36,028 nucleotides of DNA, taken from NCBI GenBank assembly GCA_903838025.1, contig CAILXB010000141.1:1-36028 (forward strand). Reading direction: 5' to 3'. The notes beneath the pieces were generated by a model. It saw only the letters and a list, made by a program, of their open reading frames with translations, did not search any database and was not told where the DNA came from. The position numbers and the translations under genes were made by a program. The stretch comes from an uncultured Chlorobiaceae bacterium (GTDB taxonomy: Bacteria > Bacteroidota > Chlorobiia > Chlorobiales > Chlorobiaceae). How positions within the stretch are numbered: the stretch's first letter is position 1; each line of letters begins with the position of its first letter. Positions 6,959-11,842 of the stretch are shown here, in pieces.

Positions 6959-7636
6959 TCAACCCTTTTTTTTGCCTCCCTCTACAGCAAGTTCAGCCGC
7001 AGTGCAGCAGATATCCGACTGAACCTGACAAAGCATACTTTCTGTTGCCTGCTGCATGATTTGCGACATCACAGCCTCGCTCATAAACCGCAAAATACCC
7101 TCAGGCATAAGGTTCAGGGGAAAAGAGAGTTCAAAATCAAGAGCAATATCGGTATCAAAATAGACTGATGTCCGGCCATCATGCTGATGCAGCAGGCAAA
7201 TTTCAGAACTTGCATGACCGACGAAAGTGTGGGGAGAAATCAGCTCAACTTCAGGATGATCATGAACCGCTTCCCACCGAATCCGCCTTCCATCACCATT
7301 GAGGTGCGACCTGTTTTTTACCCTGGAAGCCAACTGCTGTCCATAACTGTCATCAAACGAAAAAACCTCCTCCAGTTGGCGAACAAAAAACACTGCCGTG
7401 ATCGGATTGTTTCGAGGATCAGCCACCTGAAAAATCCACTGAAAAATACCGAGGTCCACTAAATACCTGACGTTACTGCAATAAGGATTACACTTCAGCA
7501 GCTTTTCATGATCTGAAAAGTAGAGAATCGATTCATGAAAACATGAGTCAAGAACCACATGCGCTTTGCTTTTACCAACAACTTCCATTGATGTACGAAA
7601 AAAAATTGAAGAACCAAAAATCCAGACAAGTGTCAT
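6959..7636 (-). CDS. SRPBCC/DUF1997-like protein
   Basis: A 225-residue protein without signal peptide or membrane helix. From about residue 20 it reads like a START/SRPBCC ligand-binding fold of the DUF1997 type: SKAHVVLDSCFHESILYFSD, a central strand region (GIFQWIFQVADPRNNPITAVFFV) and a C-terminal DFELSFPLNLMPEGILRFMSEAVMSQI helix. The family assignment is by pattern only. Such folds bind hydrophobic ligands, and next to a carotenoid cyclase a pigment or lipid ligand is plausible but unproven. The first ATG overlaps the stop of the preceding gene (ATGA), suggesting translational coupling. An internal ATG at 7588 (MEVVGKSKAHVV) matches the domain start better, so the start is uncertain. 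The C-terminus is Lys-rich (GGKKKG). Confidence 0.6.
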   Translation of the reverse strand: MTLVWIFGSSIFFRTSMEVVGKSKAHVVLDSCFHESILYFSDHEKLLKCNPYCSNVRYLVDLGIFQWIFQVADPRNNPITAVFFVRQLEEVFSFDDSYGQQLASRVKNRSHLNGDGRRIRWEAVHDHPEVELISPHTFVGHASSEICLLHQHDGRTSVYFDTDIALDFELSFPLNLMPEGILRFMSEAVMSQIMQQATESMLCQVQSDICCTAAELAVEGGKKKG

Positions 7637-7996: not shown

Positions 7997-8350
7997 CTAC
8001 TCTTTTTTGGCAGTTCCATCAATAATTTTATTGAGTGAATTGGATAACATACCGCAAACCATCTCAACCATCTTCAACTGCGAGGTGCCAATATCAACCA
8101 GAGAGGTGCAATAAACATTGAAGGCCTCAACGGTATCAATAAGGGGCTCAGAGAGTGTTGCATCCTCTGCAGGCTCTGGAGCCACTGCTGCTTTAGGCAA
8201 TACTCCGCCTCCCTTTGTGGCGGCTACAGTGCGGCTTTGCGTCTGGGATGGTGAGGTCGTTGCTGCTTTTATGCCTGGCTCTTCCTGAGGAGAGGCATCA
8301 CTTTTTTTGAACCGGGAAAAAAATCCCCCTTTTTTTTCATCTTTTGCCAT
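7997..8350 (-). CDS. Small protein with amphipathic C-terminal helices, unknown function
   Basis: A 117-residue protein in three parts. The N-terminus is basic (MAKDEKKGGFFSRFKK). Residues 18-70 are low-complexity, rich in Ala/Pro/Ser/Thr and probably disordered. The C-terminus is an amphipathic helical region, IDTVEAFNVYCTSLVDIGTSQLKMVE and onward to NKIID. That last part is loosely like the amphipathic helices of CsmB/CsmF-type chlorosome envelope proteins, but the similarity is too weak to name it. The start at 8350 is chosen because GGAG lies 7 bases upstream; the track start at 8356 leaves only one or two bases. It begins 33 bases after the cruA stop, so it is almost certainly co-transcribed with it. 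Confidence 0.65.
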   Translation of the reverse strand: MAKDEKKGGFFSRFKKSDASPQEEPGIKAATTSPSQTQSRTVAATKGGGVLPKAAVAPEPAEDATLSEPLIDTVEAFNVYCTSLVDIGTSQLKMVEMVCGMLSNSLNKIIDGTAKKE

Positions 8351-8383
8351 GATCATTCTCCATTTGACTGTTAAAAAAAGATA

Positions 8384-9964
8384 TCAATTTTTTAGAGATT
8401 TCTGCGAGAAGGCCCAGCCAATCATATTCTTAATCATACCAATCGATCCATTCAAACCAAGCTTACTGGCCGTTGCCCTTAAAATTCCAGGATAACCGCA
8501 GGCAACATGAACACCGACAACAACAAGATCGGCAAGATCCATCGTATCACGGAACAATGATTCACGATAACGGGTCGGAAGACGATCCAGCACAATCATG
8601 ACCTCATTCATCATCTCATTGACAAAGTTACGGCTATCAGTCTCTTTGCTGTAGCACATATACTTCATGAGGTTTGCCATAGCGGCCACATTGGGCTCAT
8701 AAGCGCTCACCCGCTCAAGACTCCCTTTCTCCAAATGACCACTCTGCAAAACATGCTCCAGCCCAGCAGTCAATAAGTTGATATTACGAACAAATGAGCC
8801 AAAACCACAAAAAGTCAAGGGAGAACCAAGAGAGGCCGCATCGCCTATCATAAGAATATTGTCGGCAGCAACTTCGCGGGCCAAGGTAAAACCGTCATGA
8901 AAATATGCCGGAATAATACCAAAAACCGGACGATGAATCACAAAATCAGCGCCCGGATTTTTATAGGAGGGAAGTTTGCGGAAATAGGTCTCAAACAGAC
9001 CGAGTAGACTCTTGTCGTTAGATGAATCAAGAGAGTCATAAAAAAAAAGATAGGTCGTGTACTGCTTGTTTCCGGCGGGAAACCCCTCCCATATTAACTG
9101 GCGGCCATTTCCTGCACTGTGATCGGCTGGTTCAAGGCTGACAAGTATTTCACCAATCTCTTCATCAATCCCCTCCAAACCGGAAGCAAGGGTACCAACC
9201 GTCGGACAGACATGAGTCTGGGGGCGCCCATTGTTCAACTGCCGCGCAACAGGCGAGGAAACCCCCATCGCATCAGCAAGAAGTCGCGCCTTATAGTAGA
9301 ATTTTTTATGAGCCCGATCTTCAACCTCAACAACAACATAACCCGGAAACTGAAAACACCTTGCAAAAGTCAGGCCACTTAAAACCTGATTACCGGCAAC
9401 AGCAAGAACTTTTTGTTGTGCAAGACCCAGCAGCGTATCGGCCTCAACCGCACAATCAAGCACATTATCGAGATAGAGCCTTTTTTTTCGGCCATCTTCA
9501 ACAAAAAACTCGGCCCAGCCTGTTTTATAACGGCAAACAATACTACGCTCAATCTCTTCGGCCGAAAAACACCCCGTCTCCTCCAGATTTTTCAGCTCAC
9601 TCCTCGATATATTCCAGTCACGAGTCGACTTTCCCGGAGTATTGCGGTCAAAAACAAGCACTGAACGCTGATACTTTTCAACCATAACCGCAGCATGAAA
9701 AAGAGCCAGAGTTCCCCCAGCATACACAATATCATACTCTCCGCTGATCGTTATCCCCTTAGGCATCATATCACCGTTGAAAACCACCTCCAGAGAGAGC
9801 CCACTCTTGACCTGCTCCCAATACCGGTCTATTTCAACAATTTGCTCAAAATGCTTTTGACCATCATCAAGCATACTGAAATGCTTATAAAAAAGCGGAT
9901 GCGTCTGACGTACCTGTTCCAGTCCCATAAGCAGCGAATACCATTTAAAAGAACCGTTGCACAT
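8384..9964 (-). CDS. cruA: CruA/CruB-family lycopene (gamma-carotene) cyclase
   Basis: An FAD/NAD(P)-dependent flavoprotein of the CruA family, which cyclises the ends of lycopene on the way to chlorobactene or isorenieratene, the chlorosome carotenoids. Near the N-terminus is HFEQIVEIDRYWEQ, followed by a Rossmann motif DIVYAGGTLALFHAA. The C-terminal half carries ILMIGDAASLGSPLTFCGFGSF, closely matching the GDA..SPL.FGGFGS signature of cyanobacterial CruA. It has about 526 residues from the ATG at 9964. The track start (10042) is a GTG, with another ATG at 9997, and no ribosome site decides among them. Brown-coloured green sulfur bacteria carry two paralogues, CruA (lycopene cyclase) and CruB (gamma-carotene cyclase), and I cannot separate them without an alignment. 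It heads an operon with three small uncharacterised genes. Confidence 0.85.
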   Translation of the reverse strand: MCNGSFKWYSLLMGLEQVRQTHPLFYKHFSMLDDGQKHFEQIVEIDRYWEQVKSGLSLEVVFNGDMMPKGITISGEYDIVYAGGTLALFHAAVMVEKYQRSVLVFDRNTPGKSTRDWNISRSELKNLEETGCFSAEEIERSIVCRYKTGWAEFFVEDGRKKRLYLDNVLDCAVEADTLLGLAQQKVLAVAGNQVLSGLTFARCFQFPGYVVVEVEDRAHKKFYYKARLLADAMGVSSPVARQLNNGRPQTHVCPTVGTLASGLEGIDEEIGEILVSLEPADHSAGNGRQLIWEGFPAGNKQYTTYLFFYDSLDSSNDKSLLGLFETYFRKLPSYKNPGADFVIHRPVFGIIPAYFHDGFTLAREVAADNILMIGDAASLGSPLTFCGFGSFVRNINLLTAGLEHVLQSGHLEKGSLERVSAYEPNVAAMANLMKYMCYSKETDSRNFVNEMMNEVMIVLDRLPTRYRESLFRDTMDLADLVVVGVHVACGYPGILRATASKLGLNGSIGMIKNMIGWAFSQKSLKN

Positions 9965-10088
9965 AAAAACGAAATTTACACCTTCTTCCCTCTCCATCAA
10001 AACATCATGCACATCCCTAACCCTCAAGAGCCAATTCCGCACATGCCGAAGAGAACCAAAAAGAAAGATTCAAGGAGAGCATTCAACG

Positions 10089-10448
10089 ATGAAAACGCTT
10101 TTAAAGCCGTCAGAATTTTGTAATTTCAAAAGGCTGATGAACGCCTCCCCAAATTACATTCAGCACAAATTCCTTTCGAGTTACTACAAAGCCTATTCAT
10201 GGAAAAATATTACCAACAGGGTAAGAAAAAATCCCTATAAATTCCTTAACCTTATAACAAGCCTTGCCTTCAGAAAAAACATCGAGGAACAGCTCGACAC
10301 CTTTGAACGCCGAAAAACAACAAGAAACAACAACCATGCAGCAAATCACTCTCTACACGTCCATCTACGCACCCGTGCTCTATTTTTTCTCAGGCATTAC
10401 CATCGTCATTCTTCTGAACAAATTTATAGGAAAACACTCCTCCAATAA
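10089..10448 (+). CDS. Small basic hypothetical protein
   Basis: A 119-residue ORF embedded in the longer track ORF 9957-10448. I start it at the ATG at 10089 because AAGGAG lies 11 bases upstream. It is very basic, with aromatic residues early on (YIQHKFLSSYYKAYSWKNI ... NPYKFLNLITSLAF). This resembles the C-terminal tail of B12-binding radical-SAM proteins such as the BchE family, but without any catalytic part; that resemblance is an impression only. The last 35 codons overlap a second small ORF in another frame and look less protein-like. It is transcribed divergently from cruA. It may be a remnant of a deleted gene, a true small protein, or not a gene. Confidence 0.4.
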   Translation: MKTLLKPSEFCNFKRLMNASPNYIQHKFLSSYYKAYSWKNITNRVRKNPYKFLNLITSLAFRKNIEEQLDTFERRKTTRNNNHAANHSLHVHLRTRALFFLRHYHRHSSEQIYRKTLLQ

Positions 10449-10461
10449 AACGGCAAAATAA
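10336..10461 (+). CDS. 41-residue single-span membrane protein (candidate)
   Basis: Below the length cut-off of the track and contained in the 65-residue ORF 10264-10461. From the ATG at 10336 it encodes a short polar start, one hydrophobic span (APVLYFFSGITIVILLNKFIG) and a basic tail (KHSSNKTAK), a convincing single-pass topology with the tail in the cytoplasm. It overlaps the end of the preceding small ORF in a different frame. There is no strong ribosome site, so its reality rests on the protein pattern. It sits between cruA and the flavodoxin-PCP_red gene, so a role in the photosynthetic membrane is possible but unsupported. Confidence 0.35.
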   Translation: MQQITLYTSIYAPVLYFFSGITIVILLNKFIGKHSSNKTAK

Positions 10462-10520: not shown

Positions 10521-11147
10521 CTATGTGCCGCCAAGGGTGTCACGCGCCTCTTCAAGCACGGCAAGGGTAATCTCTTTATATCCCATCTCCTCGGCATACT
10601 CTTCAGCCATTGTCCTGAACTTCCCCTGCATAAAGGAGGGCATAGATTGAAACCACTCCTGGGCCTCCTGAGTCCATTTCGCCGACAAACCTCTGGATTT
10701 CAAGCTTTTATTATACTGATGAAGCACATCTTCAACAAAGATTTCAACAGCATCGCCCTCTGAAAGAACATCTGGTGGAAAAATTGTTTCAACAAGAATT
10801 TTATTGCGGATCAAGTGCATTTTCAACTGCGGCAGATAGAGCACCGCTGCCGTAGACTGCGAACTTCCGCATGTCAAAAAGAGCGCAACTTTTTTCCTTT
10901 TAAGATTTTTTTTCAGGTCGCCAAAAATCAAGGCGCCCAAAAGCTGTGAGGCAACAACAAAATTGTACACCGGCGCACCAAGAATGACAAAATCAAATTC
11001 CCCTACAAAACTGTAGTCTGCCAGCGCCCTGCACTTTGCTTTTTCAACATAAACACCTGATTCCGCCAGGCTGAGCCCTATTGCATCAATAATCGCCTCA
11101 GTAGAACCAGTTGAACTCCTGCTATCGTACAAAATAAGAGCTTTCAT
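10521..11147 (-). CDS. Flavodoxin-like protein fused to a PCP_red domain
   Basis: A 208-residue two-domain protein. Residues 1-150 form a flavodoxin fold: ALILYDSRSSTGSTEAIIDAIG carries the FMN-phosphate loop (S-x-x-S-T-G-x-T), followed by DFVILGAPVYNF and VALFLTCGSS. Residues 157-202 (KWTQEAQEWFQSMPSFMQGK ... EITLAVLEEA) match the PCP_red module, a roughly 45-residue helical domain best known at the C-terminus of the BchB/ChlB subunit of dark-operative protochlorophyllide reductase. I infer a redox protein of bacteriochlorophyll metabolism that may dock to, or deliver electrons to, a BchB-like complex. A perfect 20-base inverted repeat sits just upstream. It is monocistronic as far as visible and convergent with the two small ORFs. 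Confidence 0.85.
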   Translation of the reverse strand: MKALILYDSRSSTGSTEAIIDAIGLSLAESGVYVEKAKCRALADYSFVGEFDFVILGAPVYNFVVASQLLGALIFGDLKKNLKRKKVALFLTCGSSQSTAAVLYLPQLKMHLIRNKILVETIFPPDVLSEGDAVEIFVEDVLHQYNKSLKSRGLSAKWTQEAQEWFQSMPSFMQGKFRTMAEEYAEEMGYKEITLAVLEEARDTLGGT

Positions 11148-11614: not shown

Positions 11615-11842
11615 ATGGCAAACGGAACAGGCAATGACGTATCAGGCGCCGTCACCAACCTTTTGGAGACATTGGGAAAGCTTGCCCAGCAGCAGGTTGA
11701 TTTATTGACCAGTGGAATCAAGAGCGCAGTGGGGCTTATTGAGCCTCTTGGCAAAACAGCAACGGATCTCGTTGGCAGCGTAATAAATGCACTGAATCAG
11801 GTGTTGCAAAGCGTTTCGGCTGCGATTGCGCCCAAAAAGTAA
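11615..11842 (+). CDS. csmB: Chlorosome envelope protein, CsmB/CsmF family
   Basis: A 75-residue small amphipathic protein: MANGTGNDVSGAVTNLLETLGKL, then a central IKSAVGLIEPLGKTATDLVG and a C-terminal VLQSVSAAIAPKK. The EPLGKTA..L and SSAIAPKK-like ending are hallmarks of the CsmB/CsmF chlorosome envelope proteins, which coat the lipid monolayer of the green sulfur bacterial light-harvesting organelle. The length is as expected for the family. CsmB and CsmF are close paralogues and I cannot firmly choose between them. There is no clear Shine-Dalgarno sequence before the ATG (CATACAGACC). Upstream are a palindrome and a foldable element; downstream is a strong terminator, so the gene is probably a highly expressed single transcript, insulated from amgK. 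Confidence 0.9.
   Translation: MANGTGNDVSGAVTNLLETLGKLAQQQVDLLTSGIKSAVGLIEPLGKTATDLVGSVINALNQVLQSVSAAIAPKK

Follow-up and report, generated by a model that had tools for sequence, protein, structure and literature searches.

The window analysed here, a 36,028-nucleotide stretch of DNA from an uncultured Chlorobiaceae bacterium, encodes on its minus strand (10521-11147) a protein of 208 residues in which a flavodoxin-fold domain is joined to a PCP_red module. The open reading frame starts with ATG, and the assignment is supported by profile matches, conservation and purifying selection. Since the same two-domain protein was seen again in relatives at 50-98% identity, the fusion is no frameshift or assembly artefact. 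It was found in green sulfur bacteria only and often lies beside antenna-pigment genes. These facts suggest that the fusion is a probable redox partner in the pigment pathway. Neither the flavodoxin nor the PCP_red domain is new in itself. Their combination and its lineage history appear to be undescribed in the literature searched, which included few subscription journals and yielded no paper on the fusion or on the function of PCP_red.

The PCP_red module, proposed for this protein in the initial annotation, was confirmed by a full-length match to PF08369 (Pfam; 57 bits against a cut-off of 32.5, E 2e-15, profile positions 1-45 of 45) at residues 158-202 (10542-10676, minus strand). All eight long forms tested, that is, two-domain proteins of this family, scored above the gathering threshold of PF08369. 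The best match of the C-terminus among profiles of solved structures was 2kru (E 7e-13), deposited under the name 'Light-independent protochlorophyllide reductase subunit B'. BchB/ChlB carries PCP_red at its C-terminus as the fusion does, with 31-41% identity over about 50 residues. The BchB equivalog models, however, aligned to the window protein only through their final ~55 positions; TIGR01278 (BchB/ChlB) matched at model positions 459-511 with 34 bits against a cut-off of 490. The nitrogenase-type catalytic oxidoreductase domain of BchB/ChlB is thus absent from the fusion, which has a flavodoxin fold in its place.

The flavodoxin-fold domain covers residues 1-150 (10698-11147, minus strand). 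PF12724 (Flavodoxin_5, Pfam) matched residues 4-106 with 28 bits, just above the cut-off of 27, and the fusion scored far under the flavodoxin equivalog cut-offs. In the AlphaFold2 model (mean pLDDT 86.8, from a 39-row alignment) the order of strands and helices is flavodoxin-like and is followed by a helical C-terminal module. Structural alignment with VIA-align placed residues 1-145 of the model on the short-chain flavodoxin of D. vulgaris (1f4p) with a Z of about 18, at 2.4 Å over 140 residues with 23% identity. As modelled, the N-terminal domain has the flavodoxin alpha/beta fold, in common with 1f4p. The profile match and the fold match together bear out the proposal that a flavodoxin-like domain is joined to PCP_red.

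The predicted flavin site was compared with that of D. vulgaris flavodoxin. The glycine-rich loop of the window protein reads SRSSTGST (residues 9-16), with the family consensus DSxSxGGST. Compared with the D. vulgaris phosphate loop, TTGNT, the loop of the fusion family is two residues longer, with GGST replacing TGNT. Gly14, Tyr61, Cys93 and Gly94 are invariant in the alignments of the long forms and the short, flavodoxin-only forms, and Thr16 is nearly so. Tyr61 aligns next to the 60s loop, where flavodoxins have an aromatic residue that stacks on FMN. Asp95 and Tyr98 are the acidic and aromatic 90s-loop residues of D. vulgaris flavodoxin. In the alignment the Tyr98/Asp95 position is apparently not conserved in the fusion, so the FMN affinity and potential are uncertain. 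The second aromatic residue and the acidic 90s loop of D. vulgaris flavodoxin thus seem not to be conserved, and the added PCP_red is a further difference. The fusion likely binds FMN.

A relative of the fusion was found by profile search in all 98 Chlorobiales genomes. The complete two-domain form was present in 78 of the 86 Chlorobiaceae genomes, including that of C. tepidum TLS, and in none of the 12 other Chlorobiales, which have only a flavodoxin of ~150 residues. In these profile-based searches, which covered Bacteroidota genomes, the flavodoxin domain was detected at E 1e-6 in 75/75 Chlorobiales and 0/221 other Bacteroidota. When 84,980 species were scanned by DNA pattern, a method that detects close relatives only, 18 Chlorobiaceae matched, and one weak match in Desulfobacterales was limited to the first 60 residues. 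A search of plasmids gave no match to the fusion. PCP_red clusters were seen in five other Bacteroidota genomes, and the three that were read contained no flavodoxin fusion. The fusion was accordingly found in Chlorobiaceae only and in no non-phototroph, in line with the restriction to phototrophs implied by the initial annotation.

Synteny pointed to the origin of the gene. The ancestral site, occupied across the order by the flavodoxin-only paralogue, reads gap-[short]-dnaJ-grpE-hrcA. Chlorobaculum genomes, that of C. tepidum TLS (G106) among them, have the short and long forms in tandem at this gap/dnaJ site. In some Chlorobium genomes (G075, G060) the long form alone is found there, and in most Chlorobium the short form is at the gap/dnaJ site and the long form at a separate, pigment-linked locus. 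The long form is present twice in G060 and in G259. In the flavodoxin tree the long forms clustered together (support 84/85), and those from pigment sites formed a strong clade (100/99). In the PCP_red tree, built on ~48 columns, the fusion modules formed one clade apart from BchB and BchZ (98/81). As read from the sequences, the fusion descends from the flavodoxin-only paralogue found across Chlorobiales, PCP_red presumably having been acquired after this flavodoxin was duplicated. The best fit is one fusion event with a later relocation, and in the lineage of the window the long gene was relocated to a pigment locus. Within the clade of the window, the dN/dS of the flavodoxin part was about 0.08-0.20 and that of PCP_red about 0 to 0.09. 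Both domains are maintained by purifying selection, PCP_red being the more constrained.

Among the 24 distinct pigment-site loci (L102 duplicates L035, and the two were counted once), 15 have an intact bchQ, bchR and/or bchU within about 5 kb; these 15 are related and do not represent 15 independent events. Two radical-SAM proteins encoded beside the fusion belong to the BchE family, and their C. tepidum orthologues lie at 1.683 Mb and 1.242 Mb. These positions fit CT1777 and CT1320, which we take to be BchQ and BchR, respectively. BchQ and BchR are radical-SAM methyltransferases (PMC7242693). The identity of BchU is certain (TIGR02716, 484 bits), and the BchU of C. tepidum TLS is identical to 1x19. 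Within about 5 kb of the fusion, bchU was found in 10 genomes. Three arrangements were observed: a bchU-bchQ-Get3/ArsA block divergent upstream of the fusion (e.g. L041, L044, L047, L061), bchR directly upstream (L038, L039, L040, L043), and bchQ convergent and downstream (L032-L035). The existence of three different arrangements argues against one frozen accident. In addition, decayed C-terminal pieces of a fusion copy (L160:1287-1409 and L161:1676-1798; 78% identity over residues 168-208) adjoin bchU in G244, which has no intact fusion, and in G213, which has an intact copy elsewhere. The pigment-gene context is limited to certain lineages, since the fusion of C. tepidum sits between gap and dnaJ, distant from pigment genes.

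In the window, a relic of bchQ is convergent to the fusion (10140-10313, plus strand). It retains 58 C-terminal codons and is 86% identical by tblastn to the BchQ-type radical-SAM protein of L032, where the fusion is 98% identical to that of the window and an intact bchQ lies between the fusion and the cyclase gene. DNA alignment with L032 showed that about 1.3 kb of bchQ was deleted in the window. No intact bchQ was found in the genome to which the window belongs, which is 80% complete; the fusion is intact despite the truncated neighbour. The relic, lying between the fusion and the cyclase gene, had been overlooked in the initial annotation.

The gene beyond the relic (8384-10042, minus strand) likely encodes a lycopene/gamma-carotene cyclase of the CruA/CruB type, as suggested by synteny and a sub-threshold match to the GG-reductase superfamily. 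It is found beside the fusion only in the sub-clade of the window. Further downstream are the genes of a 119-residue protein with no family match (7997-8356, minus strand), which follows the fusion at most pigment-site loci, and of a 225-residue protein (6959-7636, minus strand), which does so at nearly all of them and matches DUF1997 weakly (26.1 bits, cut-off 27). On the other side, a divergent gene (11615-11842, plus strand) encodes a putative CsmB/CsmF-like chlorosome envelope protein of 75 residues, with orthologue alignment and synteny as the evidence. It has no Pfam or NCBIfam match. We presume it to be CsmB-like, and it is most likely the 'chlorosome gene' mentioned in the initial annotation.

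Since the fusion is limited to makers of BChl c/d/e and adjoins pigment-methylation genes, its function is best read as a part in chlorosome pigment synthesis. Radical-SAM methylases of the BchQ/BchR type require a one-electron reductant, and radical-SAM enzymes are reduced by flavodoxins in other bacteria. The position of a flavodoxin beside two radical-SAM methylases therefore suggests the role of a reductant. We tentatively propose that the fusion may be an FMN carrier serving the enzymes that tailor the chlorosome bacteriochlorophyll ring. The FMN of its flavodoxin domain would take up electrons from the ferredoxin/FNR pool, which is reduced photosynthetically, and would hand them on to these enzymes. 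BchQ and BchR, as radical-SAM methylases of the B12 type, are the best candidate acceptors. Docking of the carrier, whether to a tetrapyrrole enzyme or to the pigment substrate, would fall to the PCP_red module. We infer each element of this scheme: that FMN is bound, that electrons are donated, which enzyme is the partner, and that PCP_red docks the carrier.

Our confidence in this proposal is limited, and it could well be wrong, because one genome (G102) does without the fusion, the C. tepidum gene is away from pigment genes, and bchQ is broken in the window. The fusion-less G102 has bchU and, in its case at least, also bchQ and bchR. Two more genomes with bchU and no fusion (G028, G189) probably do without it as well. 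All three keep the short flavodoxin. Chloroherpeton likewise has bchU and no fusion. A dependence of the fusion on bchU was accordingly rejected. For BchQ and BchR, and likewise for the nitrogenase-like steps, the literature found established no physiological electron donor in green sulfur bacteria; a lineage-specific flavodoxin bearing PCP_red is a concrete candidate. C. tepidum TLS, which is naturally transformable, offers the fusion in tandem with its flavodoxin-only paralogue.

In the initial annotation the fusion was read as the electron donor, or else an assembly factor, dedicated to a bacteriochlorophyll enzyme, with BchB or BchN as suggested pull-down partners. The broader part of this proposal is upheld by the confinement to phototrophs and by the neighbouring bchQ, bchR, bchU and CsmB-like genes; the tie to BchB and DPOR is not. 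With such a tie, the fusion would serve DPOR (BchLNB) or COR (BchXYZ), its PCP_red imitating the C-terminus of BchB or BchZ and docking near the Fe protein. BchB and BchZ of the same Chlorobiaceae do end in PCP_red, the fusion is confined to lineages that make BChl, and the donor to BchL is given only generally, as ferredoxin 'or similar' (PMC12518044, PMC7948495). However, no fusion locus that was read adjoins bchN/B/L or bchX/Y/Z, the neighbours at the pigment loci being ring-methylation genes, and the DPOR-containing Chlorobiales genomes G005, G087 and G125 have no fusion, nor do Chloroherpeton-type genomes with DPOR. The fusion modules are also separate from BchB and BchZ in the PCP_red tree, albeit on few columns. 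Moreover, the flavodoxin-only form is still present in Chlorobiales genomes that yielded no BchB. A search for BchB was negative in G079, G133, G137 and G237 of the Chlorobiales family f3, which are 95-100% complete; their close relative G125 has it. We therefore consider a donor to DPOR or COR unlikely. BchB also seemed to be missing from C. tepidum, C. limnaeum and G052, but this was not taken as real. Matches to BchB break off at round coordinates within open frames of great length (G173:C1 near 2650000 and G052:C1 near 2017500), which suggests masked genome sequence in two of these cases.

It is worth noting another interpretation, to which we give a similarly low probability. The fusion might have a regulatory or scaffolding function and no physiological redox role; together with the 119-, 93- and 225-residue neighbours it would then act in chlorosome biogenesis or in adaptation to low light. 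The one-strand gene order fusion-119aa-(93aa)-225aa is kept at most pigment-site loci, where CsoR-like, TolC-like and RND genes often follow; a CsmB-like gene is adjacent or near at many of them, and the stronger constraint on PCP_red than on the flavodoxin domain would also be in keeping with such a role. On the other hand, neither the glycine loop nor Tyr61 or Cys93 varies among the short and long forms, which suggests selection on the flavin pocket.

It is very unlikely that the fusion is itself a flavoenzyme with a tetrapyrrole or carotenoid as its direct substrate, such as a HemG-like protoporphyrinogen dehydrogenase with PCP_red binding the pigment. Flavodoxin_5 is the family that contains HemG (PgdH1), and the C. 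tepidum protein gave a weak match to the HemG profile. In Chlorobiaceae, HemJ was not found and the HemY-like proteins are divergent (L126:628-1878 and L127:616-1869, both minus strand; 91-92 bits, cut-off 97.85), and their protoporphyrinogen oxidase may be divergent. The HemG model NF008316, however, scored only 16.1 bits for the window protein and 22.6 bits for that of C. tepidum, far under its cut-off of 142. In addition, a near-threshold HemY does exist in Chlorobiaceae, and Thermochlorobacter-type relatives carry a canonical HemY (297 bits) alongside the flavodoxin, so HemY is not replaced there. A HemG-type replacement, once a candidate, was demoted to a rival on account of these HemY proteins.

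The initial annotation had described PCP_red as mainly a piece of BchB/ChlB. It does occur on BchB; it is not specific to BchB, being present also on BchZ, in the stand-alone cyanobacterial protein Asr4154, the structure of which is solved (2l09), and on radical-SAM and UspA proteins. The last two were seen in three Bacteroidota genomes outside Chlorobiales (G030, G183 and G167; L053, L054 and L055), which share a conserved cluster with several PCP_red proteins. The partners of PCP_red in this cluster are a SPASM radical-SAM protein and a double UspA protein, the latter with several copies and a rubredoxin-like motif; a small zinc-ribbon-like PCP_red protein lies beside an Mrp-type ATPase, and cytochrome genes adjoin. 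These genomes yielded no BchB-like PCP_red protein. Asr4154 and these proteins resemble the fusion in having PCP_red outside BchB and, unlike the fusion, have no flavodoxin domain.

PCP_red is found on BchB, which works with BchL, on BchZ, which works with BchX, and, in Bacteroidota outside Chlorobiales, on SPASM radical-SAM and other proteins beside an Mrp-type ATPase, and relatives of the PCP_red-bearing flavodoxin adjoin BchQ and a Get3/ArsA ATPase. For these reasons PCP_red could conceivably serve as a general module for docking in anaerobic redox systems built around radical-SAM enzymes and ATPases of the NifH/Mrp/Get3 class, although we regard this as improbable. If it were so, the fusion would be the first recognised electron carrier into chlorosome pigment tailoring. 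The spread of PCP_red to proteins of non-phototrophs makes its function a wider question.

A small open reading frame (MQQITLYTSIYAPVLYFFSG..., ~41 residues with one likely membrane helix) is also convergent to the fusion in the window, at about 10336-10461 on the plus strand. Homologues at 53-73% were seen at L046, L061 and L103, suggesting that this open reading frame is real.
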